Source: an uncultured Aureimonas sp.
Lineage (GTDB): Bacteria > Pseudomonadota > Alphaproteobacteria > Rhizobiales > Rhizobiaceae
DNA: 51,029 nucleotides
NCBI RefSeq assembly: GCF_913775355.1
Contig: NZ_CAJYIU010000052.1
Span: 1-51,029 of the forward strand
Direction: 5' to 3'
Shown: positions 8,890 through 48,249 of the stretch, piece by piece
How positions within the stretch are numbered: position 1 is the stretch's first letter
Layout of the letters: each line of letters starts with the position of its first letter
Notes under the pieces: model-generated
Told to the model about the DNA's origin: nothing
Seen by the model: the letters and a program-made list of their open reading frames with translations, nothing else
The model's database searches: none
Position numbers and translations under genes: made by a program

Positions 8890-9150
8890 ATGAAGAAGTC
8901 GAATTTCACGGAGGCGCAGATCGCGTTCGTCCCGACGCAGGCCGACGAGAAGACGGCAGTTGCGGAGGTCTGCCGGAAGGCCGGGATCTCGGAGGCGACG
9001 TTCTACAACTGGCGCAAGCGGTACGTTGGGATGATGCAGTCCGAGGTGAGCAAGCTGCGCCAGATCGAGGAGGAGAATGCCAATCTGAAGCGGCTCGTCT
9101 CGGACCTGTCGTTGGACAAAGCGATGCTGCAGGACGTTCTATCAAATTGA
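8890..9150 (+). CDS. IS3-family transposase OrfA
   Basis: 86 residues. An N-terminal helix-turn-helix (KKSNFTEAQIAF, VAEVCRKAGISEATFYNWRK) is followed by a leucine-zipper-like helix (EVSKLRQIEEENANLKRLV), which in this family mediates multimerisation and DNA binding. It ends LQDVLSN, close to the family's usual length. OrfA alone cannot transpose; the OrfAB transposase needs orfB, which is ruined here. Confidence 0.88.
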   Translation: MKKSNFTEAQIAFVPTQADEKTAVAEVCRKAGISEATFYNWRKRYVGMMQSEVSKLRQIEEENANLKRLVSDLSLDKAMLQDVLSN

Positions 9151-10683: not shown

Positions 10684-11424
10684 CTAGGGCGGCCGGCGGG
10701 CGATGCGGGTGACGAACGGCACAGCCCGCCGTCGCCAGCGCCGCTCGGCCAGTGCGATCAGGACGAGGAGCGTCAAGGGCAGGCCGAACCGCAGGGCGGC
10801 AAGCCCCGCGGCCTGGAAGCGGGCAGTAAGCGCGACGGCGTGCGGCTCGCTGACCGCGCCCCCCGCCGCCTTGCCGGCCTTCGCCTCCGCTGCTGCCTCC
10901 AGAAGCCGCGCGAGGTCCCGCGTGAAGTCGGGAAGGGGGCGCGGCGCGGCGTCGAGCGCGAGGAAGCCCTGCGAGAAGCGTAGACGAGGGCTGGCGGGAT
11001 CGCGCAAGGCGTCGGGAACCGACATTTCCTCGACAACCGCGCCGCTTCGCGCCAAGCTCCGCCGCACGTCGGCGTAAAAGGCGGCATCGAGCACGAAGAG
11101 CGCGACGGATCCGCCTCGCGGCGCCAGGTCGGTATCCGGATCGACCGGCCGCATCGCCGCGCCTGGCGCGCGACGCTCCACCCGGTCGGCATAGAGATCG
11201 ATCGTCACGGTTGCTGGAGCCGCCTGGCGCGCGTGAAGAAGGGCGATCATCGCGGGTCCATCCAGCGCCCGGCGTTCGCTCGCCAGAAGCGCCCGGGCAA
11301 GATCGGGGCGCGCGGGTGCCTCCCGCCGTCCGGCCAGCGGAACGAGCGTCAGGAAGACCACGAGGCAGACCGAAAGGAGGTTGGCCGCAAGATCGGCCGC
11401 CACGGCGAACTCGAAGCGGATCAC
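10684..11424 (-). CDS. ExbD/TolR/MotB-like membrane protein 2 of a T3SS-linked proton-channel module
   Basis: 246 residues from a GTG that overlaps the upstream stop by four bases (GTGA). It begins RFEFAVAADLAANLLSVCLV, one transmembrane helix (residues about 8-30) with a single acidic residue, Asp11, at its start. This matches the ExbD/TolR plan in which one Asp in the lone N-terminal helix carries the proton. A periplasmic-type domain of about 180 residues follows. Unusually there is a second membrane helix near the C-terminus (about 210-226) with a strongly basic cytoplasmic tail, a feature normal ExbD or TolR lacks. It is encoded with an ExbB-like partner and another ExbD-like protein. 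Its role in secretion is inferred. Confidence 0.7.
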   Translation of the reverse strand: MIRFEFAVAADLAANLLSVCLVVFLTLVPLAGRREAPARPDLARALLASERRALDGPAMIALLHARQAAPATVTIDLYADRVERRAPGAAMRPVDPDTDLAPRGGSVALFVLDAAFYADVRRSLARSGAVVEEMSVPDALRDPASPRLRFSQGFLALDAAPRPLPDFTRDLARLLEAAAEAKAGKAAGGAVSEPHAVALTARFQAAGLAALRFGLPLTLLVLIALAERRWRRRAVPFVTRIARRPP

Positions 11425-11942
11425 GGCTCCTCGCCGGTCAGGTGCCGCCGGCAGAGCGAGCGAGCCATTTCCAGCCCGGCCTCCGCCAGTGCCGCGCAAG
11501 TCTCGTCCAGACGGACCTGAAGGAGGCGCCGCGCGGGGGCCGCGCGCGCGATCACCGGATCAAGCAGGAACGAAGCCTCTTCGCCTCCCGGCACCACCGC
11601 GACCAAGAGCGGCTCGGCACCCTCGCGGATGCGGTCGGCGAGCCCGACGTCGGTCGCGATGCGGGCGAGCGGCACACCGACCGGCGGAGCACCCGCCAGC
11701 GTTACGCCCTTGGGTCCCGCCAGCAGCACGAGCGCGTCATCGCCCACCAGCCGGGCATGGCCCGCGAGGAGGTCGCCGACCGGGTCGCGCGCGCCGAGCA
11801 CGATGCGAAGCGACGGATCCGCCATGAACAGCGAGAACAGAACGGTCGCGCCGAGCGTCAGGAAGAGATCCGTCAGCGGAATGTCGCGGCCCACGCTCCC
11901 GGCCTCATCGTCGTCGTCGTCGGGCTCGGCCTCAGAGCGCAT
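11421..11942 (-). CDS. ExbD/TolR-like membrane protein 1 of a T3SS-linked proton-channel module
   Basis: 173 residues. A short acidic cytoplasmic N-terminus (five consecutive Asp) leads into one membrane helix, IPLTDLFLTLGATVLFSLFM (about 21-40). It carries Asp25, in the same place as the proton-carrying Asp of ExbD (IPLxD...). The rest is a periplasmic-type domain. I take the ATG at 11942, which overlaps the ExbB-like gene by 11 bases. An upstream reading-frame extension lies inside the ExbB-like gene and is out-of-frame noise. ExbD-type proteins pair with ExbB-type channels to convert proton flow into motion or force. The pairing is seen in gene order; the function in this T3SS is inferred. 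Confidence 0.7.
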   Translation of the reverse strand: MRSEAEPDDDDDEAGSVGRDIPLTDLFLTLGATVLFSLFMADPSLRIVLGARDPVGDLLAGHARLVGDDALVLLAGPKGVTLAGAPPVGVPLARIATDVGLADRIREGAEPLLVAVVPGGEEASFLLDPVIARAAPARRLLQVRLDETCAALAEAGLEMARSLCRRHLTGEEP

Positions 11943-13077
11943 CGGCCGTCCGCAGCGCGACCTCGACCAGGCGGTGACACTGCGCGCGCGTTTCGCCCTC
12001 GCGGCGCTCGATGGCGGCGAGCACCAGGGACGCGACGAGCCCACCGAGAAGCCCCAGAAGCGTCGTCTCGAACTGGATCGACAGACCTGCGAGGCTAGCG
12101 CCGATGTCGGCGACACCCCCCGGCCGCTCGCTCCCACCGTCGCCGCCGAGGCTTCCGATCGCCACGGCCAGCCCGATCACCGTGCCCACGAAGCCGAGCA
12201 GTGGAAGGAACGCGAGAAGCGCGCGCAGGTATCGGCGCGTCGAGGCATGGACCGCGTCCAGCGATCGCCGCGCCGTCTCGGCGCCCGGCAGACCGGCGGC
12301 CTCGCGCATGTCGGCGCCGCTGCGGCTGTCGCCCGGCAGGTCCCGCAGCGCCTCTGCGAAATCCGCCCGGACGACGGGAAGCGACTCCCGCAGCCGCGCG
12401 CGCACGAGCGTCAGCACCGCGCGATCCTCGCATTGCCGAAGAAGGGCGTCGAGGCAGGCCGCGAGCAGTGTCAGAAACAGGATCATGATCGCGACATGGA
12501 CGTAGGTCGCGCCCAGCACCGCGCGCAGCGTGACGCCCAAAGCATCCGGCGCACCGGCCGCCATGACCGGAGCCGCAAGGGTTTCCAGCGCGGCGTAGAG
12601 GAGAAGGGTCCCCGCCAGGCCGAGCGATAGGGCGCCACCGAGCGACTGGGAGCGCATTGGGCCTTCGGCGTTCACGGGATCGATCCAGGCGGATCGTAGA
12701 CGTTCCGTGACGAGGATCGACTGCAGCCGGGCGGCCGGCAGGAGGACCAGAAGCTGCGGCCAGACGGGCGAGGCGGCGACGCGCGTGGGAAGCGTGCCGA
12801 GACCCGTGGTCAGGAGCGGCACGGCGGCCGCATAAAGCGCCGACAGAAGTGCGGCGCAGGCGAGAAGCGCCGGCTGTCCGGCATGGGCTCGCGCCAGGCC
12901 CGCCAGCAGCAGCAGGGCGAGGGCCGCCAGCACGAGGAGCCGCGAGACGCCAAGCCCCCCTTCCGTCATCAGCGCATGGAGCGCGAGCGCGGGAAGCAGC
13001 GCCGCGCCGAGCAGCCGTGCGAAGCGCGAGATGCGCAGCGGCCGACCCGGTGCCGTACCGGCGATGTCGGGTCTCAC
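11932..13077 (-). CDS. MotA/TolQ/ExbB-family proton-channel protein encoded directly after sctV
   Basis: 381 residues from a GTG overlapping the sctV stop by four bases. Several hydrophobic segments fill the N-terminal half (about 20-36, 44-62, 68-90, 148-176, 186-212). The C-terminal part has the family's paired channel helices: LPLLGFVGTVIGLAVAIGSL (about 291-310), then SIQFETTLLGLLGGLVASLV with the conserved Thr-Thr (338-339) that lines the proton path in ExbB, TolQ and MotA. It is longer than ExbB because of extra N-terminal membrane segments, which makes its topology unusual. The two downstream genes encode Asp-bearing single-helix partners. No standard sct component has this fold. Confidence 0.8.
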   Translation of the reverse strand: MRPDIAGTAPGRPLRISRFARLLGAALLPALALHALMTEGGLGVSRLLVLAALALLLLAGLARAHAGQPALLACAALLSALYAAAVPLLTTGLGTLPTRVAASPVWPQLLVLLPAARLQSILVTERLRSAWIDPVNAEGPMRSQSLGGALSLGLAGTLLLYAALETLAAPVMAAGAPDALGVTLRAVLGATYVHVAIMILFLTLLAACLDALLRQCEDRAVLTLVRARLRESLPVVRADFAEALRDLPGDSRSGADMREAAGLPGAETARRSLDAVHASTRRYLRALLAFLPLLGFVGTVIGLAVAIGSLGGDGGSERPGGVADIGASLAGLSIQFETTLLGLLGGLVASLVLAAIERREGETRAQCHRLVEVALRTADAL

Positions 13078-15206
13078 AGGGCGGTCAGTTGCGCGCCCTG
13101 CATCATCTTGATGCGATCGAGCGGCTGGATGTTGGCCGAGGGGCTCAGTTCCTGGTAGCTCAGCACCGCCAGACCGGGAAAGTCGCGCTCCACGATCTTG
13201 CGCATGAAGCGGCGGATATCCATCGGCGCGAGGATCACGGGCGACATGGCCTTGGGCGCGGGCGCGCCGATCACGTGCTTCATGGCCGCGATCATCTCGC
13301 GATGCGTGTCGGGCGCGAGCGCGAGATAGGAGGCGCCGCTGGTCTGGCGCACGGCGCTGCGCACCGCGTCCTCGATCTCCTTGGAGATCAGGAACGCAGG
13401 GATGACGTTCTGCCCGCCCGAGAACTTGTGGGTGATGTAGCGCGACAGCGCTCCGCGCACGTGCTCGGCCAGCACGATCGGGTCCTTCTCGCGCTGGCCC
13501 CATGTGACCAGCGCCTCTAGGATCGTGCGCATGTCGCGGATCGAGATATCCTCCGACACGAGGCGCTGAAGGACGTCGGTGATCGTGGTGATGGGCAGGA
13601 GGCGGGTCGCCTCGCGCACCAGTTCGCCGAAGTTCTTCTGCATCTGGTTCATCAGGAACATGGTTTCCTGAACGCCCACGAACTCCGAGGCGTGCGCCTT
13701 CAGGACATGGGCCAGATGGTAGGTCAGCATGTTGGACAGGGTCATCGTCTGGATGCCCGCCCGCTCCAGGAGGGGCAGGTGCTTCATCTGCACCCACAGG
13801 CTCGGCGTGTGGGGCAGGAAGTCCTCGCCGCGCTCGAAGGGAACGCTGAACATGCGAAGGTTGGTTTCGGTCTCGCGCACGATGAACCAGCCGGGGCGCG
13901 CCGCGCCCGCCGCCACCGGGATCTCGTTGACGAGGATGCGATACTCGCCCTCCGACAGGTTCTCGTTCAGACGCAGGTTGATGCCCGGAAACGGCACGCC
14001 GAGGTCGAAGTAGAGGGCACGGCGCACGCGCGCGACCTCGCGGTCGAGCTTGTCGGGGCGGATCGAGTCGCGCACCGAGGCCGCGATGTCGACGATCAGC
14101 GGCACGGTGAGCGCGAAGTTCACCGCCTCGACGGGCATTCCGTCGTCCTCGTCGCCGCCTGGAAAGCGCGGCGACTTGCCTTGGGGAGCCAGCGCGGCGG
14201 CCAGCGCCGGCATCTCGGCCGAGCGTTTCTCCTGCGCACCCTTGGCGCGGCCGCGCATGGAAAGATAGCCCCCGCCGCCCACGATCAGGGCGAGTGTCAG
14301 GAACACCAGCGGCGGGAAGCCCGGCACCACGGCGAAGATGCACAGGATCGCGGCCGTGATCATCAGGGCCTTGGGTTCGGCGATGAGCTGGGCGGCGATG
14401 TCGGAGCCCAGGTTGTCGTTCTCCTCGGAGGCGACACGCGTCACGATGAAGCCCGCCGTGATTGACACGAAGAGCGCCGGGATCTGCGAGACGAGGCCGT
14501 CGCCGATAGTGAGCAGCGAGTAGAGATGCATGGCGTCGCCCGCCGCCATGCCCTTCTGGAGGACGCCGATGGCGAGGCCGCCGATCATGTTCACGGCGAT
14601 GATGATGAGGCCGGCGATGGCGTCGCCCTTCACGAACTTCATGGCGCCGTCCATGGCGCCGTAGAGCTGGCTCTCCTTCTCCAGTTTGCCGCGACGGCGC
14701 TTGGCCTCGTCCAGCTCGATCTGGCCGGCGCGCATGTCCGAATCGATCGACATCTGCTTGCCTGGCATGGCGTCCAGTGAGAAGCGCGCCGACACTTCGG
14801 CCACGCGCTCCGAGCCCTTGGTGATGACCATGAAGTTCACGATCGTCAGGATCAGGAACACCACGAGGCCGACGATGAGGTTGCCGCCCACCACGAACTT
14901 GCCGAACGTCTCGACGATGTGGCCGGCATCCGCCTGGATCAGGATCAGGCGCGTGGTGGAGATCGCGAGCGCGAGACGGAACAGCGTCGTGATCAGCAGG
15001 ATCGAGGGGAAGGCGGAGAGCTGTGTGACGTCCTTGAGGTAGATCGCGGCCATCAGCAGGATCGCCGACAGGGTGAGGTTGATGGCGATCAGGACGTCGA
15101 TCATGATCACCGGCAGCGGCAGGATCATCATGAACACGATGCAGATCAGCAGGAAGGCCAGGAACAGGTCGTTGCGCCGGGCCAGCGTCTGAAGGAAGCG
15201 AGTCAT
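13074..15206 (-). CDS. sctV: T3SS export-gate protein SctV
   Basis: 710 residues of the FHIPEP family (YscV, InvA, HrcV). The N-terminal about 320 residues hold the hydrophobic segments and the FHIPEP-type region TTLFRLALAISTTRLIL. The charged loop RRGKLEKESQLYGAMDGAMK and the large cytoplasmic domain that forms the nonameric export ring follow. I choose the ATG giving MTRFLQTLARRN at 15206; a longer open frame to 15281 lacks homology. It couples export to the proton-motive force and binds chaperones and gatekeeper. Unlike many clusters it is apart from sctR-S-T-U and is overlapped downstream by the ExbB-like gene. Confidence 0.96.
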   Translation of the reverse strand: MTRFLQTLARRNDLFLAFLLICIVFMMILPLPVIMIDVLIAINLTLSAILLMAAIYLKDVTQLSAFPSILLITTLFRLALAISTTRLILIQADAGHIVETFGKFVVGGNLIVGLVVFLILTIVNFMVITKGSERVAEVSARFSLDAMPGKQMSIDSDMRAGQIELDEAKRRRGKLEKESQLYGAMDGAMKFVKGDAIAGLIIIAVNMIGGLAIGVLQKGMAAGDAMHLYSLLTIGDGLVSQIPALFVSITAGFIVTRVASEENDNLGSDIAAQLIAEPKALMITAAILCIFAVVPGFPPLVFLTLALIVGGGGYLSMRGRAKGAQEKRSAEMPALAAALAPQGKSPRFPGGDEDDGMPVEAVNFALTVPLIVDIAASVRDSIRPDKLDREVARVRRALYFDLGVPFPGINLRLNENLSEGEYRILVNEIPVAAGAARPGWFIVRETETNLRMFSVPFERGEDFLPHTPSLWVQMKHLPLLERAGIQTMTLSNMLTYHLAHVLKAHASEFVGVQETMFLMNQMQKNFGELVREATRLLPITTITDVLQRLVSEDISIRDMRTILEALVTWGQREKDPIVLAEHVRGALSRYITHKFSGGQNVIPAFLISKEIEDAVRSAVRQTSGASYLALAPDTHREMIAAMKHVIGAPAPKAMSPVILAPMDIRRFMRKIVERDFPGLAVLSYQELSPSANIQPLDRIKMMQGAQLTAL

Positions 15207-36546: not shown

Positions 36547-38916
36547 ATGGACCGAGGCATATCGAAGGCGCGTTCGCCGTCTCGGCATCGACCAGGTGCG
36601 CGCGACCGTCGGCGAACGCTTCTTGTCTCGTCGGCATTGGCCGGTGCCCTGGCGCTGTCGGCCTGCGTCTCCTCGCTCGACGACATGGTCGGGCCCACTG
36701 GACAACCGCGTCTTGAGAACGGCGAGGCGGAGCGCTCCGGGCCCGTCGTGGACGTGCGCCGCATCAATGCCGCGAGCGTGGCGCGCGGAGCCGAGCCCTT
36801 CACCGGCTTCGTCGGCAGCCAAAGCGTCGAATACGCGCCCAATACGGTCCAGCTGACGCAGGATCTCAACGAGCTGCGCACCAGCAACACGACCGGCTTC
36901 GATCCGAACGAACGCATCTCTCTGGACTTTCAGAACGCGAGCGTGAATTTCGTTCTCCAGCAGCTGCTCGGTGGCGCGCTCGGCCTGAACTACGTCGCGC
37001 CCGACAACCTGCCCGGTCGCATCACCTTCCGCACCGAGACGCCGATCCCCAAGAGCCGCGTGCTCGACGTCGTGCGCGACCTCCTTGCGCGAAACGACCT
37101 CGTGATCCGCGCGATCAACGGCGTCTATCATGTGGGATCGGCCGCCGTGATCCAGGGGCTGACCGCCAACGCGGCCGCGGGCTCGGCGGGCGAGGAGATC
37201 ACACGCATCGTCAAGCTCGGCCGGGGCAACGCCGCGCAGGTCGTCCAGCTCGGAAACGCGCTGGTGCCGGGCGGCGTGCAGCTGCAGGCTTCCTCATCGC
37301 CCAATACAGTGGTGCTGCGCGCCAGCCCCGACGAAGCGGATGGGGTCGAGCGCCTGCTGCGAACCATCTCGCAGTCGGCGGTGAGCCAGGGGTCGGTGGC
37401 CATCGTGCCGCTCGGCCAGAGCGAGCCGTCCGCGATCGCCGAGCGCGTCAGCGCTTTCTACGCCTCCACCATCCGCGGCGACGAGCCGTCGATCACGGTG
37501 CTGCCACTGGAAGCCCAGCGCGCCCTCTTGATCGGCACGCCCGACGCCCAGCAGATGAATTCCGTACGCCTCCTCGTTCAGCAGCTCGACCGCTCCACGA
37601 CCGACGTGTCCTCGCTGCGCGTGATTCCGCTGACGCATCTGCGCGCCGAGGAGATCGCGCCTCAGGTCAGCAGCGTCTTCGGTTCCGGTGCCGGAACGGC
37701 GCGCGGCGGCGGGGCGCGCGCGGCGCGTCGCGACGTCCTCACCGATCCCAAGCGCACCGCGCCCAGGAGCCGTCTGTTTCCACGCGCGCGCCTGCCGGGG
37801 GCGGGCGAGGGGCCCCTGTCGGACTCGGAAGCCGATACGGGCTCGGGCACCACCCTGTCGCCGCCGCCGGCGATCGACCTACCCGCCGACGGCGCCGAAG
37901 CGGGACCGCGCAGGCGCGCGGCCGCGTCGGGCGAAACCAGCGCCGAGGGGGATGCCGCTGTCGTCGGCGAAGGTCAGGGCGGGTCGTCGGTCCAGATCGC
38001 GCCGCCAGCCGCCGACGAAATCCGCATTGTTCCCGACACGCGTACCAACACGCTGCTCGTCTACTCCAGCTATCGCATCTTCAACCAGATCCGCGAGACC
38101 GTGGCGGCGCTGGACGTGCCCGAAGCCCAAGTTGTCATCGAGGCCACCGTGATCGAGGTCACGCTGAATGACCAGCTCGAGCGGGGTGTCCAGTTTTTCT
38201 TGGAGTCCAACGGCATCGGGGCAGGATCGGGCATTCCCTCCGCTGTCTCACCAACCACGGGCGGTATCGTCGGCTTCTCGGGGACGCTCGGCAACATCTC
38301 CGTCAACGCGGTGCTGACCGCGCTGCGCGACGTGACCAACGTCAAGGTCGTGTCCTCGCCCTATCTGACGGTGCTCAACAACCGCACCGCCCGGCTCGTG
38401 ATCGGTGACCAGATCCCCTTCGCCACCGCGACCCAGGCCTCGAGCAATCTCGGCAACGTCACCGTTACGCGGGAGATTCAGGTCGTGGACACCGGCGTCG
38501 TGATGGAGATCACGCCGCAGATCCATGCCAACAACTCGGTGAACCTCGCGATCAGCCAGTCAGTCTCGACGCCGAAGCCAGGTTCGGCCTCGGAGGAACT
38601 GACGCCGACGATCGCCACGCGCGATCTCCAGAGCCAGGTGCTCGTCCAGTCGGGCCGCACGATCCTACTCGGCGGCCTGATCCAGGACCGGGTCGAGAAC
38701 GGGCGCTCCGAGGTGCCGGGCGCGGGCGACATTCCGGTGCTCGGCAATCTCTTCCGTCAGCGCACCCAGGTCGCCGCGCGCAACGAACTCCTCGTTCTGA
38801 TCACGCCGCGCGTGACGCGCACCTCCAGCGAGATCGAGAACATCACGCGTCTCCTGCGCTCCTCGCTGGTGGACGGGGGCGGCGTGGCGCCGCAGAGCGT
38901 GGTCGAGAAACCCTGA
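36547..38916 (+). CDS. sctC: T3SS outer-membrane secretin SctC (lipidated, GspD-like)
   Basis: 789 residues. The N-terminus has a lipoprotein signal ending ALALSAC with Cys40, preceded by an Arg-rich leader. An N0-like domain (about 127-200, NASVNFVLQQLLGGALGLNY, GRITFRTETPIPKSRVLDVV) and ring-building domains follow. A Gly/Ala/Arg/Pro-rich linker (about 384-480) interrupts the last of them. The secretin core (about 595-765) contains VVSSPYLTVLNNRTARLVIG, TIATRDLQSQVLVQSGRTIL and IPVLGNLFRQRTQVA. These core motifs are closer to the T2SS secretin GspD than to classic YscC. A 203-bp gap precedes it, so it may have its own promoter. Own lipidation could replace a pilotin. Confidence 0.93.
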   Translation: MDRGISKARSPSRHRPGARDRRRTLLVSSALAGALALSACVSSLDDMVGPTGQPRLENGEAERSGPVVDVRRINAASVARGAEPFTGFVGSQSVEYAPNTVQLTQDLNELRTSNTTGFDPNERISLDFQNASVNFVLQQLLGGALGLNYVAPDNLPGRITFRTETPIPKSRVLDVVRDLLARNDLVIRAINGVYHVGSAAVIQGLTANAAAGSAGEEITRIVKLGRGNAAQVVQLGNALVPGGVQLQASSSPNTVVLRASPDEADGVERLLRTISQSAVSQGSVAIVPLGQSEPSAIAERVSAFYASTIRGDEPSITVLPLEAQRALLIGTPDAQQMNSVRLLVQQLDRSTTDVSSLRVIPLTHLRAEEIAPQVSSVFGSGAGTARGGGARAARRDVLTDPKRTAPRSRLFPRARLPGAGEGPLSDSEADTGSGTTLSPPPAIDLPADGAEAGPRRRAAASGETSAEGDAAVVGEGQGGSSVQIAPPAADEIRIVPDTRTNTLLVYSSYRIFNQIRETVAALDVPEAQVVIEATVIEVTLNDQLERGVQFFLESNGIGAGSGIPSAVSPTTGGIVGFSGTLGNISVNAVLTALRDVTNVKVVSSPYLTVLNNRTARLVIGDQIPFATATQASSNLGNVTVTREIQVVDTGVVMEITPQIHANNSVNLAISQSVSTPKPGSASEELTPTIATRDLQSQVLVQSGRTILLGGLIQDRVENGRSEVPGAGDIPVLGNLFRQRTQVAARNELLVLITPRVTRTSSEIENITRLLRSSLVDGGGVAPQSVVEKP

Positions 38917-39016: not shown

Positions 39017-40927
39017 TCAGGCCGCGAGGCCGGCGATCCTCGTTCGCGCCGCGGTCTCGTTGGCGGGCGACAGACCCCGAATGGCCGGGTGATCCAGCAC
39101 CGCATCCATCGACAGGCGCTGGTGCGGATCGGGATGGAGGAGGCCGTTCAGGAGGGCGTCCACCTGCGGATCGCCGCTGGTTCCCGCCAGGAACGGGGTA
39201 ACTAGGTCGATTCGGTTGCCGATATCGGCGACCGTCGAATCCACGGCGCGCTGCGAAAGGTCGAGGCCGAAGTCCCGGAACTTGTGCGCCGTGTTCGCCG
39301 ACTGGCCCGGCGAGCGGTCGTAGATCAGCGAGAACACGGTGGCGCCCAACGCCCAGACGTCGCCGGTCTTGCCATGGCGCGTGCTGTCGACCCCGCTTTC
39401 CTGCGAGGCCATGGCCACGTTCCGGCGCACGGCCTCCTGCAGGACGCGCCGCTGCTCGCCGTTCAACCCCTTGCCGCGGAACCGCTCGTCCACCTGGTTC
39501 GCCAGATTGTCGATCTTGTTCTGGTCGATCAGAAGATTGTTGCTGGTCTCGTCCGCCCGCTTGAAGCGCGACGCCGCCCGGTAGGCCGCGTCGCCGTCGC
39601 GGTCGTACTCGGGGGCGGTGTAGTTCGATCCCCCGTTCTTGATCGCAGCGTTGCCGTAGGAGTAGTCGCCCGTCTTGGTGGCGGTTCCGAAGTCGGCGAT
39701 CTTGGTGACCGCTCCGGTGCCGATGAAGCAGTTGGTCGGCTTGAAGTCGGCATGGACCAGGTCCGAGGTCTCGTGCATGTGCTTCATGCCGGTGGCGAGG
39801 TCCTTCAGCACCGTGAGGGCGATGTTGCGCCGCTCGACCGTGGTGAGGGTTGCATCCTCCTTCATGTCCCGGATAAGCCCGCCGACGTCGCCCATCGGCG
39901 CGTATTCCATGGCGATCAGAAGCGAGCCGTCCTCGCCCAAGACCGTTCCCTTCAGGCCCACGACGTTGGGAGAGCCGCTGACGGCGCGATGGGCTGCCAC
40001 CTCGTCGCGGATCTCCTTACGCGCCTCCGGCGAGGTGGCTTGGATGGCGGACTTCACCGCGATCCGCTCCGTGCCGCCCTTCTCCTTGTAGAGATCGACG
40101 CTGCCGAAGCCGCCCTGGCCGAGATGTCGGTCCAGCTCATAGGTCTTGCCGCCGATCGTGATGTCGCCGGCGGCGTCCTTGCGGCCGTCCGCGAGCGCGG
40201 CCGCCGCGCTTCGGACCGCCGTCTCAGCCGCGGCCTTCACGCCCTGCAGCGTTTCGGCGTCGGGCTTGCCGGGAAGCGCGGCGACCATCAGCTGTTCCAG
40301 CGCCTCGCGCATGGCCGGGGCGCCGGTGAGCACGAAGCTGTCCTTATCCGCCTGCGAGGCGGTCCTGGCGAAGTCGAGCGCGAGATGCCGGCCGACCTGC
40401 GCCGGATCGCCGCCGACGAGCGGCTCCTTCGCGAAGCGGGGCGCCGTGTCGCCGACCGGCGCGCGCAGCGACTCCAGCTCTCCCAGCATCAGGCCGGCGG
40501 CCTGGCCGAGCGCGCCCGGGGTCAGCTTATCGGGCGAGGGGCCGCGCATGCCGTCGTCGGCTCGCACCGCGGCGGCCATCATCTTCAGGGACGCGCCCTT
40601 CAGCTCGCCCTTGAGGCCCGACTGGAGAGCCGTCCTTACGCTGGAGAATACGGCGGGGTCCGCGCGCGGGCCGGCGCGGTTGACGACGCCCGCGATCGCA
40701 TCGCGCGTTTCCCGGTTCCGGTTCGGGCTGGTGAACTTGGCGAAGAAGTTACCGATGTCCTCCTTGGCCTTGGCGAGGCCCGTGGGCTTGGGGCTGGCGT
40801 AGAGCACGACGCCGCCGGCCGTGCGCTCGGTCCTCACGCGGTCCTTGTCGTGAAGGTTCAGCGCGAAGTTCTGGAGCTCGTCGAGGCGGGTGTTCGTGTT
40901 GAGCTGCAGGCGGGAGATGTTGGACAT
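39017..40927 (-). CDS. Candidate T3SS effector: Ser/Thr protein kinase (YpkA/YopO-like)
   Basis: 636 residues. An N-terminal region of about 260 residues (starting MSNISRLQLNTNTRLDELQN, as expected for secretion and chaperone binding) is followed by a eukaryotic-type kinase domain. The glycine loop is LGQGGFGSV (about 269-277) and the ATP-binding Lys is Lys292 in RIAVKSA. The catalytic loop is VHADFKPTN with Asp394, and the metal-binding motif is ADFG with Asp412. TAPEYDRD and GDVWALGATVFSL follow. The catalytic HxD lacks the Arg of RD kinases, as in Yersinia YpkA (HND). The gene follows a CesT-like chaperone gene by 13 bp, the usual effector-chaperone pairing. The host target is unknown. Confidence 0.85.
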   Translation of the reverse strand: MSNISRLQLNTNTRLDELQNFALNLHDKDRVRTERTAGGVVLYASPKPTGLAKAKEDIGNFFAKFTSPNRNRETRDAIAGVVNRAGPRADPAVFSSVRTALQSGLKGELKGASLKMMAAAVRADDGMRGPSPDKLTPGALGQAAGLMLGELESLRAPVGDTAPRFAKEPLVGGDPAQVGRHLALDFARTASQADKDSFVLTGAPAMREALEQLMVAALPGKPDAETLQGVKAAAETAVRSAAAALADGRKDAAGDITIGGKTYELDRHLGQGGFGSVDLYKEKGGTERIAVKSAIQATSPEARKEIRDEVAAHRAVSGSPNVVGLKGTVLGEDGSLLIAMEYAPMGDVGGLIRDMKEDATLTTVERRNIALTVLKDLATGMKHMHETSDLVHADFKPTNCFIGTGAVTKIADFGTATKTGDYSYGNAAIKNGGSNYTAPEYDRDGDAAYRAASRFKRADETSNNLLIDQNKIDNLANQVDERFRGKGLNGEQRRVLQEAVRRNVAMASQESGVDSTRHGKTGDVWALGATVFSLIYDRSPGQSANTAHKFRDFGLDLSQRAVDSTVADIGNRIDLVTPFLAGTSGDPQVDALLNGLLHPDPHQRLSMDAVLDHPAIRGLSPANETAARTRIAGLAA

Positions 40928-40940
40928 GACGGCGCCCTCC

Positions 40941-41387
40941 TCAGATCCGGATCGCGATCATGCCGAGGTCGAGATCGCCCGCCTGCGCCGGGGCGGGCGC
41001 CTGCGCGACGAGCGGGGCGAAGGCGCGCGCCTTGGCCGCGATGTTCTGGAGGACGTCCAGAAGGAGAGGCACGTTCATGCCTTCGCTCGGCACCTCCGCC
41101 AGAAGGACGACCTCGCCGTCCGGACCGAGAGCTGAGCACATCCCGGTCTCGCGCCGCAGGAGGTTGTATTGGAGGAGCGTCTCGTAGACCTCCAGCCGAC
41201 CCGCCGAGGGCGGGCCCGCGACGACCGCGGTGAGGAGGTGGCGCTGCGCCGCGCGATCCTCCTCGACCTGGATGTCGAGGTCCTCGAGTCGCACCACCCA
41301 GGTCTCGCCTATGGCGGTCACGGCCAGGATGTCGTCGTCGAGAGGCCCGATCGCCTCCATGAGGGGCGAGATGTCGACATGCGCCAT
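40941..41387 (-). CDS. Class I T3SS chaperone (CesT-like), probably of the kinase effector
   Basis: 148 residues, acidic, soluble. The CesT pattern is visible: an N-terminal helix (VDISPLMEAIGPLD), a strand region (TWVVRLEDLDIQVEEDR), then LEVYETLLQYNLLRRETGMC and VVLLAEVPSEGMN, typical of this family. It lies immediately upstream of the kinase effector in the same unit, so that protein is the likely cargo. A Pro/Ala-rich linker precedes the C-terminal end. Confidence 0.82.
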   Translation of the reverse strand: MAHVDISPLMEAIGPLDDDILAVTAIGETWVVRLEDLDIQVEEDRAAQRHLLTAVVAGPPSAGRLEVYETLLQYNLLRRETGMCSALGPDGEVVLLAEVPSEGMNVPLLLDVLQNIAAKARAFAPLVAQAPAPAQAGDLDLGMIAIRI

Positions 41388-41420: not shown

Positions 41421-43580
41421 CTAGCGGACGATCCAGTTGACGCTTGTGCCGAAGATAACAGCGGAAAAGCCGTCACCGCCCCGATCTACGGCCACGCCGA
41501 GCTCGCCGACGCTGGCGATGCGGCTGTTGCGATCGGGCGCGGCGCCCTCGCGCAGCTTCTCGCCGCCCCGCAGCTGCACGAAGCGGTCCTGTCCGACGTT
41601 GGCGCCCGCGATGTCGAGCGGGTAGTCCGACAGGTCGCGCGTGATGAAGTTCACGAAGCCCGGATTGCGCGCCACCTCGTCGAGATAGACCGACTGGATC
41701 GACAGGCCGGCGCGCCGCGCGCAGCTGTCGAGCCGGCGCGGGTTGAGGGCCGCCTCCAGGACGAGCGGCCGGGTCGCCGCCTCGATGCTGCCGAGCGACA
41801 GGTCCTCGCTGACGGACAGGAGGTCGAGCCAGAACAGCGTGCCCGCCACGTTCGCCTCGGTCAGCTTGGCCGTCGGCCAGCAGGCGAGATCGGCGTCCGA
41901 CAGGGGGCCGGGCCGGCGAATCGGCGCGTAGCGCTGGCTGAGGGCCGCCGGGGAGTCGGTGCCGGGCGCGGCGCGTGCGAGCGCCTCCAAGGCAGCGCCG
42001 AGGCGCCGCCCCTCCGGGTCGCGGGGAAGATGGCCGGAACCCCAGGTGCGCAGGAGCCGGCGCACGGTGTCGTCGTCCGCGTACAGGCCGGCCGAGCCAG
42101 CGCCAGCCGCCGTGGCGAGGGGATCTTGCGCGTCTCCGGTGCGACGTCCGGGCTCGGCGGTCAGCGGGGTCTCCACCCCGACGACGCGCGGCGCCGCCAC
42201 GATGCCGCCTGTTGTCACCGGACCCGGCTGTGCTCCGCCGAGGACCCGGCTCACGTTGACCGCCGCCTCCGCGGGCGAAGCGGTCTCGGTGACGAGCGCC
42301 GGCGGGGAGGCGGGCTGACCTGCGAAGACGTCCGCCAGATCATAGGTGCCCGATACGAGCCGGTCCGTATCGAGCCGCACGTCCCCTTGCGCCAGCGCGG
42401 CAGAGCCGATCACCAGGGCGGACCCGGCGGTGGGGGCCGGCTGCATCGTGCCGTCCGGATTCTGCAGGCGTACCAGCGACCGCAGGGCGATCTGCGGCGC
42501 GTATTGCGCCGTATAAGCCTGCAGAAACCCCACCCAGGCGTCGACCTTTTCGGTCGGCACGACGCCGCTCATCTCGATCAGGGAGCCGTCGAGGCGCAGG
42601 ATCGTGAGCGGCGCGATCTGCGAGCGCTCGGCAAGGCGCCGAACGGCGGCCAGGAGCGTGTCGCGGGTCTCGATCTCGGACGTCAGGGAGGCGACGCCGA
42701 TCACGTTGTCGGCGACGAGCGCGGCGACGCGACCGGCCTCGGCCGGATCGAGGATCGTCCCGCGCAGCGTCACCTCGCCCCGGTCCGAAAGCGTGAAGTC
42801 AATCCCGGGCGCCTCGACCGACAGGAGCTGGGCGATCTCGCCCTTCATGGAGTCCAGGACGCCGACGCGCAGCCTGACAGCCGGGTCGGCCGCGCGCGTA
42901 TCGGCGAGGACGGCGCGCCGCTCGGCCGGCGTCGCCACGAAGCCGGTGACGAACACCTCCCCGTCGACCTCCGCGCGCGCCTCGACGTTGCGCGCGAAGG
43001 GCAACGCGGCGATCGCCTCGCGCACGGCCTCGATGCTGCCGCGTCCCTTGCTCCCGCCCGCACCACCGACAGATCCTCCGACCGGAAGCGTGGCAGCGGC
43101 TGCGCCGAGCGCGGCCAGCACCACGGCGAGCGGCACCGCCCAGCGCAGGCGGCCCGCATTGGATTCGACGACGCCGCTCACGGCATGGCGCTTCCGCAGT
43201 CCGCTTCGGCGCAGCTTCACGGGAACCGGAGGCGGCTCCTGGGAGAGCGAGGACCAGTTGGCGCTTGGCAGGCCCGTGGTGAAGCGCGTCGTGCCGGCCC
43301 ACACCACATCGAGCGGCTCGAGATCGGCGAACTCGCCGTTCGGCAGGATCCGGGTGCCTAGTGTCGTGCTGGCCGGCCCGGCGCCCCCCGCGAGCGCCAC
43401 ACGTCCCTCGCGAACGCGCAGCCGTACGTGGCCCGGCAGAAGCGAGACATCCAGAACCTGGATGTCGTCCTCCTCGCCAGAGCCGAGGCTGTAGGTCCCG
43501 TCGGTCAGAAACACGTCGACGCCGGACTGTACGCCCGTCAGGATCTTCAGGATGATCGGTTCGGCGGCAGTGTCGGACAT
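41421..43580 (-). CDS. sctD: T3SS inner-membrane ring protein SctD, extended
   Basis: 719 residues. The N-terminal cytoplasmic part is an FHA-like domain (about 1-110, with GTYSLGSGEEDDIQVLDVSL). A transmembrane helix lies near 145-166. Periplasmic ring-building (BON-like) repeats follow (about 185-380, VRLRVGVLDSMKGEIAQLLS, GEVTLRGTILDPAEAGRVAA, VSGVVPTEKVDAWVGF near the end). Known SctD proteins are about 360-430 residues. Here a further about 300 residues follow, first a Pro/Ala-rich linker and then a probably folded domain ending SVNWIVR. That C-terminal part has no counterpart I recognise and would lie in the periplasm. It is divergent from the crp-sctF unit and precedes the chaperone-kinase pair. 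Confidence 0.88.
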   Translation of the reverse strand: MSDTAAEPIILKILTGVQSGVDVFLTDGTYSLGSGEEDDIQVLDVSLLPGHVRLRVREGRVALAGGAGPASTTLGTRILPNGEFADLEPLDVVWAGTTRFTTGLPSANWSSLSQEPPPVPVKLRRSGLRKRHAVSGVVESNAGRLRWAVPLAVVLAALGAAAATLPVGGSVGGAGGSKGRGSIEAVREAIAALPFARNVEARAEVDGEVFVTGFVATPAERRAVLADTRAADPAVRLRVGVLDSMKGEIAQLLSVEAPGIDFTLSDRGEVTLRGTILDPAEAGRVAALVADNVIGVASLTSEIETRDTLLAAVRRLAERSQIAPLTILRLDGSLIEMSGVVPTEKVDAWVGFLQAYTAQYAPQIALRSLVRLQNPDGTMQPAPTAGSALVIGSAALAQGDVRLDTDRLVSGTYDLADVFAGQPASPPALVTETASPAEAAVNVSRVLGGAQPGPVTTGGIVAAPRVVGVETPLTAEPGRRTGDAQDPLATAAGAGSAGLYADDDTVRRLLRTWGSGHLPRDPEGRRLGAALEALARAAPGTDSPAALSQRYAPIRRPGPLSDADLACWPTAKLTEANVAGTLFWLDLLSVSEDLSLGSIEAATRPLVLEAALNPRRLDSCARRAGLSIQSVYLDEVARNPGFVNFITRDLSDYPLDIAGANVGQDRFVQLRGGEKLREGAAPDRNSRIASVGELGVAVDRGGDGFSAVIFGTSVNWIVR

Positions 43581-43868: not shown

Positions 43869-44651
43869 ATGGGCACGATGGGACGCTTCGCGGCGGATCG
43901 CAGCGTGGGGGGTGGCTTGGCGCCCTCACCCTTGCGCGCGACCTCGTCCGCGGTCGAGCGGATCCCGTTTCGCGCCGGTTCGGAGTTCCGCTCCCTGTCA
44001 CCCGCCGCCAGTCAGGCGCTGTCGGCGGCGGCCGGCGTCAAGCTCTACGGGCCCAACGAGTTCATCTATCTTCAGGACGATCCGGCCGCTCACCTCTACT
44101 TCGTCCGGTCCGGCCATGTGCGCCTGTCCTATCTTCTGGAGGACGGAACGGCGGTCCTGTTCGCGATCTTGCCGCCCGGCGAGAGCTTCGGCGAGCTCGG
44201 CGTCTTCTCGGCCAGCACCCATCATGACATGGCGACCACAGTCGGCAACGCCTCGGTGTTCCGCGTTTCGGCGGGCGACGTGAAGGCGCAGGAGGCGCGG
44301 GGCGAACTGCCGCTCGCCCTCGGTCGCACGGTCGCCCGACGCTACCGCGCCTATATCGCGCTCACGCGATCGCTCGGCCTCAAGACGCTGAACGGACGCC
44401 TGTCGCAGGCCCTGCTGCGCGTCGCCGACGACCTCGGCTCGACGGCGACGCACCTGGGTCGAGACGTTCAGAGCGTCGGCGCCTTCGTCACCCAGAGTGA
44501 TCTCGGCCTGATGGCGCGCGGGGCGCGCTCCAACGTCAATCGCGCGCTCAAGGCGTGGGAAAAGGCCGGTTGGATCGCCATGTCCGACCGCTCCATCCTG
44601 ATCCTGAACCGGCGGCGGCTCGAGTCGCTCTGGCTGGAGGAGGGACTGTGA
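43869..44651 (+). CDS. Crp/Fnr-family transcriptional regulator
   Basis: 260 residues. A cyclic-nucleotide-binding-like beta barrel (about 55-140, FIYLQDDPAAHLYFVRSGHV, PPGESFGELGVFS) is followed by a dimerisation helix and a winged helix (TQSDLGLMARGARSNVNRAL) as recognition part. No Fnr-type cysteine cluster is seen. The ATG at 43869 is preceded by GGGAGGGC. The stop overlaps the next gene (GTGA), so it is translated together with the needle genes and is the best local candidate for a T3SS regulator. The 288-bp gap to sctD holds no other gene. Confidence 0.9.
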   Translation: MGTMGRFAADRSVGGGLAPSPLRATSSAVERIPFRAGSEFRSLSPAASQALSAAAGVKLYGPNEFIYLQDDPAAHLYFVRSGHVRLSYLLEDGTAVLFAILPPGESFGELGVFSASTHHDMATTVGNASVFRVSAGDVKAQEARGELPLALGRTVARRYRAYIALTRSLGLKTLNGRLSQALLRVADDLGSTATHLGRDVQSVGAFVTQSDLGLMARGARSNVNRALKAWEKAGWIAMSDRSILILNRRRLESLWLEEGL

Positions 44652-47208: not shown

Positions 47209-48249
47209 GTGACCGTCGAATCTCCCTTGCCGAAGCTGACCCTGCGTAGTGCAGACATGACGCCACAGAAGGCACTGGCGATCTGGCAGGCCACGTTGCC
47301 GCAATACGATATCGGTCTGGCGCAGACGCCGATCGAGGAGTTCTGGATCGATACATCGGCCTGGCTGATGGAGCCGATCCTGTTCACGGCGGGGCGTACC
47401 GCCGCTGCCAGTTTTGTCCGGCCTGCCGGAAAGATCGGCGACGGCTACAACAACATCATCTTCATGCTGTTTCAGCGGGGCCGCTACGCCGGTGATGCCG
47501 ACGGGCGGCCGTATGATTTCGGCGAGGGCGAGGTCTGCGTCATGGATGCCGCGCGGCCCTTCGGTGGACGCTGCACGGAGTGCCAGTACGTTCTCGTCAA
47601 CGTGTCGCGCGATGTCATACGCCGTCTCCTGCCCCACCTTCCCGATTTCCACGGCCGGGTCCTGAACCGGGCGGGCGGGCGCATCCTGGCCGAGCATTTC
47701 AGCGCCTTGGCCCGTTACCTGCCGCAGATGAACCGTGAGGAGGCGCTTCGCATCACGCAGGCGACCCTGACGCTCATGGCGGCGAGCCTTGGCGAGCTCT
47801 ACGAAGGCCCGGCCAATGTCGAGCAGACGACGGCCTCGGCGATACGGCGTCGGGTGGAGCGCTACATCGACCGTAACCTCGCCTCTCCGACCCTGCTGCC
47901 GGAGACGATCTCCCAGGATCTGGAGATCTCGCGCTCCACCCTCTACCGGGCCTTCTCGGTGCTGGGCGGCGTTTCCAACTATGTCCAGACGCGCCGTCTC
48001 GATGCGGCGCGCGCGCTGCTGTTCCATCCCGAGGAGCATCGCTCGATCGGCCAGATCGCCGACGCGCTCGGTTTCGAAAACCAGGCCTCCTTCTCGAAGG
48101 CTTTCCGCCGCCGGTTCGGTTGCTCGCCCCGCGAGGCGCGGTTGCGCGGCTCGACGCGCATCACCTCCAGTCAAGCCCTGTTCGAGTCTTGGAGCCACGT
48201 CCTCGCCGACGCCGATCCGAAGTCGGCTCGCGCGACCTTCGGTTCCTGA
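47209..48249 (+). CDS. AraC-family transcriptional regulator
   Basis: 346 residues from a GTG; an in-frame ATG at 47257 is an alternative. The N-terminal ligand-binding-like domain carries DGYNNIIFMLFQRGRYAGDA and DFGEGEVCVMDAARPFGG (AraC_binding_2 type). The C-terminal domain (about 220-320) has both helix-turn-helix units, ISQDLEISRSTLYRAFSVLG and IADALGFENQASFSKAFRRR. It lies downstream of the T3SS genes but as a separate unit, and its layout is not that of ExsA/MxiE. T3SS control is possible but not indicated by sequence. The IS3 remnant begins directly after its stop. Confidence 0.9.
   Translation: MTVESPLPKLTLRSADMTPQKALAIWQATLPQYDIGLAQTPIEEFWIDTSAWLMEPILFTAGRTAAASFVRPAGKIGDGYNNIIFMLFQRGRYAGDADGRPYDFGEGEVCVMDAARPFGGRCTECQYVLVNVSRDVIRRLLPHLPDFHGRVLNRAGGRILAEHFSALARYLPQMNREEALRITQATLTLMAASLGELYEGPANVEQTTASAIRRRVERYIDRNLASPTLLPETISQDLEISRSTLYRAFSVLGGVSNYVQTRRLDAARALLFHPEEHRSIGQIADALGFENQASFSKAFRRRFGCSPREARLRGSTRITSSQALFESWSHVLADADPKSARATFGS

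Follow-up and report, generated by a model that had tools for sequence, protein, structure and literature searches.

Flagella, outer-membrane import, gliding and type I secretion all draw their power from motor units of the MotA/ExbB family, and type IX secretion from a similar unit. SiiA and SiiB are possible regulators of type I secretion, the timing of which they may set via the proton-motive force. A 5:2 stoichiometry is reported for ExbBD, TolQR and MotAB (PMC12215075), SiiAB serves type I secretion (PMC12204202), and GldLM, which powers type IX secretion (PMC8986121), has been called non-homologous (PMC9254593). In the gliding motor of Myxococcus, AglRQS, a single MotA-like protein is combined with two that are MotB-like (PMC9120999). 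Additionally, in the PVC group a tolQ-like gene and two unlike tolR-like genes lie beside another proposed force transducer (PMC12204202), and Xanthomonas has one exbB with two or more exbD genes, exbD2 being unneeded for iron uptake (PMC3551730). For type III export, the conversion of the proton-motive force is described as unsolved in a preprint of June 2026, which lists a proton path in FlhA and proposes rotary gating of the FlhA ring (PMC13308203). No link between such a motor unit and an injectisome was found in the open-licence papers searched.

The window analysed here (the whole stretch of 51,029 nucleotides) forms a single contig in the 4.2 Mb genome of an uncultured Aureimonas sp., whose closest SctV relatives are alphaproteobacterial in a quick SctV tree. 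It carries an injectisome cluster in which sctV is followed by genes for an ExbB-like channel protein and two ExbD-like partners, together called the trio below. When gene pattern alone is compared, the trio resembles AglR-AglQ-AglS, each unit of which is encoded by a MotA-like gene and a pair of MotB-like genes, although that system drives gliding. SiiA-SiiB and GldL-GldM are motor units tied to secretion, but they belong to other secretion systems and are functional precedents only. The likeness to flagellar MotA-MotB is that of a stator-type channel working beside a type III export gate.

Gene order and composition of the cluster

The cluster is a Ysc-group injectisome that, among the components scanned, has the core Sct set, including SctX and SctY. 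Within it, SctV, SctX, SctJ, SctL and SctN scored above their NCBIfam cut-offs, and YscO, YscX, HrpJ (SctW), a CesT chaperone and the secretin scored above their Pfam cut-offs; SctY, SctI, SctQ, SctD, SctW, SctF and SycN are best NCBIfam matches, each below its own cut-off. The order on the minus strand is sctV, ExbB-like gene, ExbD1-like gene and ExbD2-like gene, with a further small gene behind them:

13074-15206, minus strand: sctV, export-gate protein of 710 aa, first gene of the unit (NCBIfam TIGR01399 SctV, 916.7 bits, cut-off 692.25)
11932-13077, minus strand: ExbB/TolQ-like channel protein of 381 aa (Pfam MotA_ExbB)
11421-11942, minus strand: ExbD1-like protein of 173 aa, with a single membrane helix at the N terminus plus a periplasmic domain
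10684-11424, minus strand: ExbD2-like protein of 246 aa, with an N-terminal Asp helix, a possibly TolR/ExbD-like periplasmic domain and an extra C-terminal membrane helix
10346-10636, minus strand: small protein of 96 aa behind ExbD2 (profile search)

The product of sctV also matched Pfam FHIPEP at 758.1 bits, for which a longer frame was used. From sctV through the ExbD2-like gene, the intergenic gaps are -4, -11 and -4 nt. A GTGA overlap, read directly from the sequence, joins the stop codon of sctV to the GTG start of the ExbB-like gene, and another is found at the start of the ExbD2-like gene. The placement of the trio directly after sctV and its coupling by GTGA, as given in the preliminary description, are thus borne out in coordinates and overlaps, and the four-gene order recurs in 15 distinct genomes, which is more than coincidence.

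The 96-aa protein is possibly part of the trio unit. When the SctV loci were searched at E <= 0.1 with a profile made from nine such sequences, relatives were found in nine other trio genomes and in none of the searched loci that lack the trio. The protein had no Pfam match when a slightly longer frame was scanned, and its relative in one locus (L025) lies on the opposite strand.

The ExbB-like protein has a TolQ/ExbB-type core

Channel helices of the ExbB/TolQ/MotA type had been recognised by eye, and the family model agrees: the ExbB-like protein of the window matched Pfam MotA_ExbB (PF01618) at 25.3 bits, above the curated cut-off of 22.9. The same model was found in 9/9 aligned ExbB-like sequences, the window's included, at E <= 0.1; the curated cut-off was compared for the window's sequence only, and the other sequences were judged by E-value. 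An AlphaFold2 model of the window protein (pLDDT 82.6) has eight long helices, in keeping with the extra N-terminal helices proposed earlier. The last three of the eight predicted membrane helices form the TolQ-like core, and five precede it. Fold comparison placed the protein closer to TolQ/ExbB than to MotA, and the N-terminal helix block returned only generic helical bundles. In three loci, the best NCBIfam equivalog scores of the ExbB-like protein were 13.8-21.4 bits, against cut-offs of at least 135 for exbB, tolQ and MotA.

Two threonines of this core align with channel threonines of TolQ, and each ExbD-like protein has one Asp in its N-terminal helix:

12181-12183, minus strand: ExbB-like Thr299, aligned with the Thr of the TolQ GTV motif (invariant in 12/12 loci)
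12061-12063, minus strand: ExbB-like Thr339 in the FETT motif, aligned with the second TolQ channel Thr (alignment)
11868-11870, minus strand: ExbD1 Asp25, candidate proton-carrying residue (invariant in 12/12 loci)
11392-11394, minus strand: ExbD2 Asp11, candidate proton-carrying residue (invariant in 12/12 loci)

The 12-locus counts here and below leave out L025 (partial SctV), duplicates, G770 and G934. The Thr339 position is occupied by Ser in L019 and L024 and otherwise by Thr. The two Asp codons confirm the positions at which Asp25 and Asp11 had first been reported.

The same genome has three further MotA_ExbB genes, one of which adjoins an ordinary ExbD-family gene; only one ExbD-family gene was seen in the genome, on another contig. 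Because of these genes elsewhere, the trio is not the housekeeping Tol/Ton set of its genome, and this candidate was rejected.

Two ExbD-like partners with an invariant membrane Asp

Each of the two ExbD-like proteins has an N-terminal membrane helix with a conserved Asp in all 12 loci. In ExbD1, Asp25 is one of three invariant residues besides Met1, and hydropathy gives a single hydrophobic segment in 12/12 loci. ExbD2 has a second, C-terminal membrane helix, as first described, which is predicted in the AlphaFold2 model of the window protein and by hydropathy in 9/12 loci including the window; of the remaining three loci, one is clipped by a contig end and two fall under the hydropathy threshold.

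The view of these proteins as ExbD-like partners stands as far as the invariant membrane Asp of each is concerned, but not at the level of the family model. Whereas the channel helices matched MotA_ExbB significantly, none of nine ExbD1 and none of eight ExbD2 sequences matched Pfam ExbD (PF02472) at E <= 1, so the HMM check was positive for one protein of the trio and negative for the two that bear the Asp. Therefore, what speaks for an ExbD likeness is the invariant Asp helix, together with the gene order and a modest fold match. The two window proteins had no Pfam match whatsoever, and thus no OmpA-like peptidoglycan-binding domain of the MotB type was detected in them. A profile alignment of ExbD1 with ExbD/TolR was colinear and scored 25.2 (E 0.0034 for the pair, with a low hhalign probability of 9.6%), compared to 17.0 for the reversed profile and 15.0 for the best of 20 shuffles, and the ExbD2 profile aligned with ExbD/TolR no better than shuffles. 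For the periplasmic domain of ExbD2, TolR/ExbD was the best, though weak, fold match, and plain Foldseek ranked unrelated folds first for this protein. Sequence-profile searches of the PDB with ExbD1 and ExbD2 gave chance rows only, and a PHROGs search with ExbD2 gave one weak match, to a family of no known role.

In comparison to TolQ-TolR and ExbB-ExbD, the trio shares the three-helix core, the two channel threonines and the Asp on an N-terminal helix; the ExbD2 periplasmic domain matches TolR/ExbD weakly. It differs in its extra N-terminal channel helices, its two unlike ExbD partners and the second anchor of ExbD2. Similarly, its place in an injectisome operon, the lack of a TonB or TolA match above cut-off among the 28 window proteins scanned, and scores below all NCBIfam equivalog cut-offs (three loci) set it apart from those systems.

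The trio is found beside sctV in related injectisome loci

After duplicates were removed, 15 distinct genomes had the trio directly behind sctV: Aureimonas sp. AU4, Aquibium sp. ELW1220, Rhizobium alvei, Celeribacter naphthalenivorans, four MAGs (L017, L019, L024 and L025) and seven more, the window's included. L018, L023 and L025 have sequences equal to those of G235, G163 and G781 and were counted as the same genomes. The ExbD1-like and ExbD2-like genes co-occur in all 15 genomes; ExbD1 of L015 was absent from the gene calls and was located by separate inspection. All 15 trio loci found adjoin sctV, and conservation beside sctV in related type III loci, on which the first description had been made to depend, was thus observed.

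Strong ExbB-like matches in the genomes searched were found only beside sctV. Among genomes of the same family, 6/247 had an ExbB-like match, all beside sctV with the order sctV, exbB, exbD1, exbD2, and in the family of Celeribacter 2/295 had one at E <= 1e-20, both behind sctV. Among genomes of the class, 64/385 matched at E <= 1e-8, and the only strong match was the window's own (447 bits; the next was 54). Searches with SctV matched 14/394 genomes of the family (weak SctV matches in G664, G063 and G678 left out of the survey), of which nine belong to the SctV clade of the window and all nine carry the trio; two further SctV-matching genomes were examined and lack it. In the class, 9/385 genomes matched SctV, and within the stretches compared only the window's has the trio.

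In named genomes, the trio was present in 8 of the best 80 of 522 SctV relatives. All eight are among the ten loci of that set with SctV at 68-88% identity, and the trio was found in 0/70 loci of the set with SctV at 56% or less, 58 of which hold at least 3 kb behind sctV. A control profile made from five non-trio ExbB/TolQ-like sequences (the five of 21 candidates that passed a motif filter) matched the same 8 of these best 80 loci and no other, and is not fully independent because three of its five sequences were first found via the trio profile. When the ExbB-like protein was the sole query, a search of genome contigs found no relative, and the plasmids searched had no ExbB-like match. Given its anatomy and this distribution, it is very likely that the trio is a channel with two Asp-bearing partners dedicated to the injectisome.

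SctV phylogeny and the SctV proton path

In a quick SctV tree of 95 rows, from which the near-duplicates L018, L023, L170 and L171 and also G934 were left out, the rows with the trio are confined to a single clade (16 rows, support 100), of which 14 carry it. The trio label needs two changes on this tree, of which the starred branches force only one, and 0/500 shuffles were as low. The two members without the trio are the Stappiaceae genomes Roseibium aggregatum and Pseudovibrio hongkongensis. Type III systems of Pseudovibrio and Labrenzia aggregata have been described as an independent Ysc-group branch (PMC4811931); this system is of the same SctV clade as the window, but the trio is absent from the two Stappiaceae genomes examined. 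Both are drawn within the clade next to a trio row, with support of 85 and 93 at the forks that hold them, and therefore loss of the trio is likely in these two genomes, with original absence as the alternative. Their ExbB-like matches are ordinary (40-45 bits, versus 258-331 bits in three trio genomes). Transposase and integrase-core genes are present behind sctV where the trio is absent (13587-14063 and 16377-16823 in L021; 12335-13106 in L022), and are a possible trace of trio loss.

Distances between SctV proteins correlate with those of each trio protein (r 0.87-0.92, p 0.0002, 12 loci), because the cluster has a shared ancestry. This joint divergence argues against the trio as an independent passenger. 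The trio genes are under purifying selection, with dN/dS of 0.15-0.53 in five pairs, dS being near or above 1 in the wider pairs.

If the SctV of this clade had lost its own proton path, the trio could have replaced it. FlhA residue numbers (PMC13308203) were placed by counting along chain 36hw_A2 in the alignment, and the residue types agree. In the SctV of the trio clade, each of the ten FlhA path positions is conserved (13/13 or 14/14 rows with a letter), which rules out replacement of a lost path; therefore, the trio would add to the path of SctV and not replace it. One path position distinguishes the clade:

14835-14837, minus strand: SctV Asn124, at the position of FlhA Asn137 in the proton path (alignment)

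Four SctV sites are diagnostic of the clade at the thresholds of the analysis, and Asn124 is the sole one in the membrane part, with Asn in 15/15 clade rows with a letter and Gln in 76/79 other SctV sampled. FlhA N137 is absolutely essential according to PMC13308203. Since both Stappiaceae without the trio share the Asn, it marks the clade and not the trio.

Possible roles of the trio in export

The trio is best read, though only tentatively, as the injectisome's own proton-motive-force unit of the ExbB-ExbD/TolQ-TolR kind, energising or gating export at the base. Of the interpretation first advanced, a stator-type channel with two Asp-bearing partners and extra helices, dedicated to the injectisome, is upheld by the family match, the invariant Asp residues and the 15 genomes, and the rest is a proposal. 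Because ExbBD, TolQR and MotAB are 5:2 assemblies, a unit of that type would be expected here, and because both ExbD-like genes are together in all 15 genomes, the pair may be mixed. The channel wall would then probably consist of five ExbB-like subunits that enclose a single helix each of ExbD1 and ExbD2, and protons would presumably pass via D25, D11 and the channel threonines.

A channel holding two Asp helices has no room for the tail helix of ExbD2, which must therefore lie outside it and could provide the anchorage for which MotB relies on peptidoglycan. For this reason, the tail helix, together with the N-terminal helices of the ExbB-like protein, probably acts as a membrane docking part, by which the unit would be held at the export gate or the inner ring in place of MotB's peptidoglycan anchor. 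The coupling to sctV points to one of these two structures as the place of action, and makes SctV the first docking candidate. Either the periplasmic domains of ExbD1 and ExbD2 would move, or the ExbB ring would move round an anchored ExbD pair, and this motion, in addition to the proton path that SctV itself has, would energise or gate export. The cytoplasmic loop of the ExbB-like protein ranges from 38 to 109 residues between landmarks across loci (12-locus comparison), and this variability favours an output in the periplasm or within the membrane. Because of the variable loop and the fold nearer to TolQ/ExbB, MotA-like torque on a cytoplasmic ring was dropped as the leading idea.

A bolder form of the proposal is a built-in rotary stator, in which units of five ExbB-like proteins with ExbD1 and ExbD2 would surround the SctV ring, with the ExbD2 tail holding them there, and would turn or kick the gate, so that two proton pathways drive export. 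The motor genes are translationally coupled to SctV, the counterpart of the FlhA ring, and SctV of the clade has the flagellar-type Asn; nevertheless, this arrangement is considered unlikely.

The trio could alternatively be an envelope motor at the assembly site that works on peptidoglycan or the outer membrane in the manner of TolQ-TolR and aids insertion of the base and secretin, with no direct part in export. This is somewhat unlikely, since the trio is coupled to sctV and not to sctC or sctD, and since among the 28 window proteins scanned with Pfam none passed a TonB, TolA or peptidoglycan-binding cut-off. The search for a TonB/TolA-like partner among these proteins, which are part of the window's ORFs, thus ended without a candidate; a sub-threshold TolA_bind_tri match in a 346-aa coiled-coil protein (E 0.13) was taken as chance.

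It is quite unlikely that the trio is a regulatory channel that senses or sets the local proton-motive force and times or holds secretion without mechanical work. SiiAB, a stator-type unit within type I secretion, provides a precedent (PMC12204202), and members of the clade without the trio exist, but a simple channel would hardly require a second anchor helix and a pair of ExbD-like partners that have periplasmic domains. A scaffold for the export gate that has lost proton conduction is very unlikely: the divergent sequences, the big added membrane parts and the two clade members without the trio would be consistent with it, whereas the membrane Asp and channel Thr, needless for a mere scaffold, are kept invariant. 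That an unrelated Ton/Tol-type energiser sits in the operon by chance is highly improbable, for although operons of one exbB and two exbD exist, for instance in Xanthomonas (PMC3551730), 15/15 trio loci found adjoin sctV, the window proteins scanned had no TonB or receptor match, and the trio and SctV diverge together.

If the trio is indeed a unit that energises or gates export, an injectisome with its own motor would be a new place for the motor family. Overall, the observations in this group of environmental alphaproteobacteria suggest that an injection machine can in some cases possess a motor dedicated to it. Because the SctV clade has members that carry the trio and members that do not, it is a natural experiment, and the two Asp residues offer clean single-codon tests in environmental hosts.

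Other features of the cluster

Several neighbouring genes are of separate interest. The secretin (36685-38916) scored 352.0 bits against type II GspD (cut-off 351.35) and 103.5 bits against SctC (cut-off 238.45); as the GspD score is far higher, the outer-membrane ring may have its own origin. A 636-aa protein (39017-40927) has a eukaryote-like protein kinase domain (Pkinase, 118.5 bits) and is adjoined by a CesT-family chaperone (40941-41387), and from the sequence the two look like an exported effector with its chaperone. The long SctD (719 aa, 41421-43580) has a BON domain that passes the Pfam cut-off, and its Yop-YscD cytoplasmic domain falls slightly short of the cut-off for that family. 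A transposase gene (HTH_Tnp_1, 8890-9150) lies at the cluster edge, followed by short frames to about 9919. Regulators of the Crp type and AraC type are encoded within the cluster at 43869-44651 and 47257-48249, and the Crp-type regulator recurs in other trio loci.
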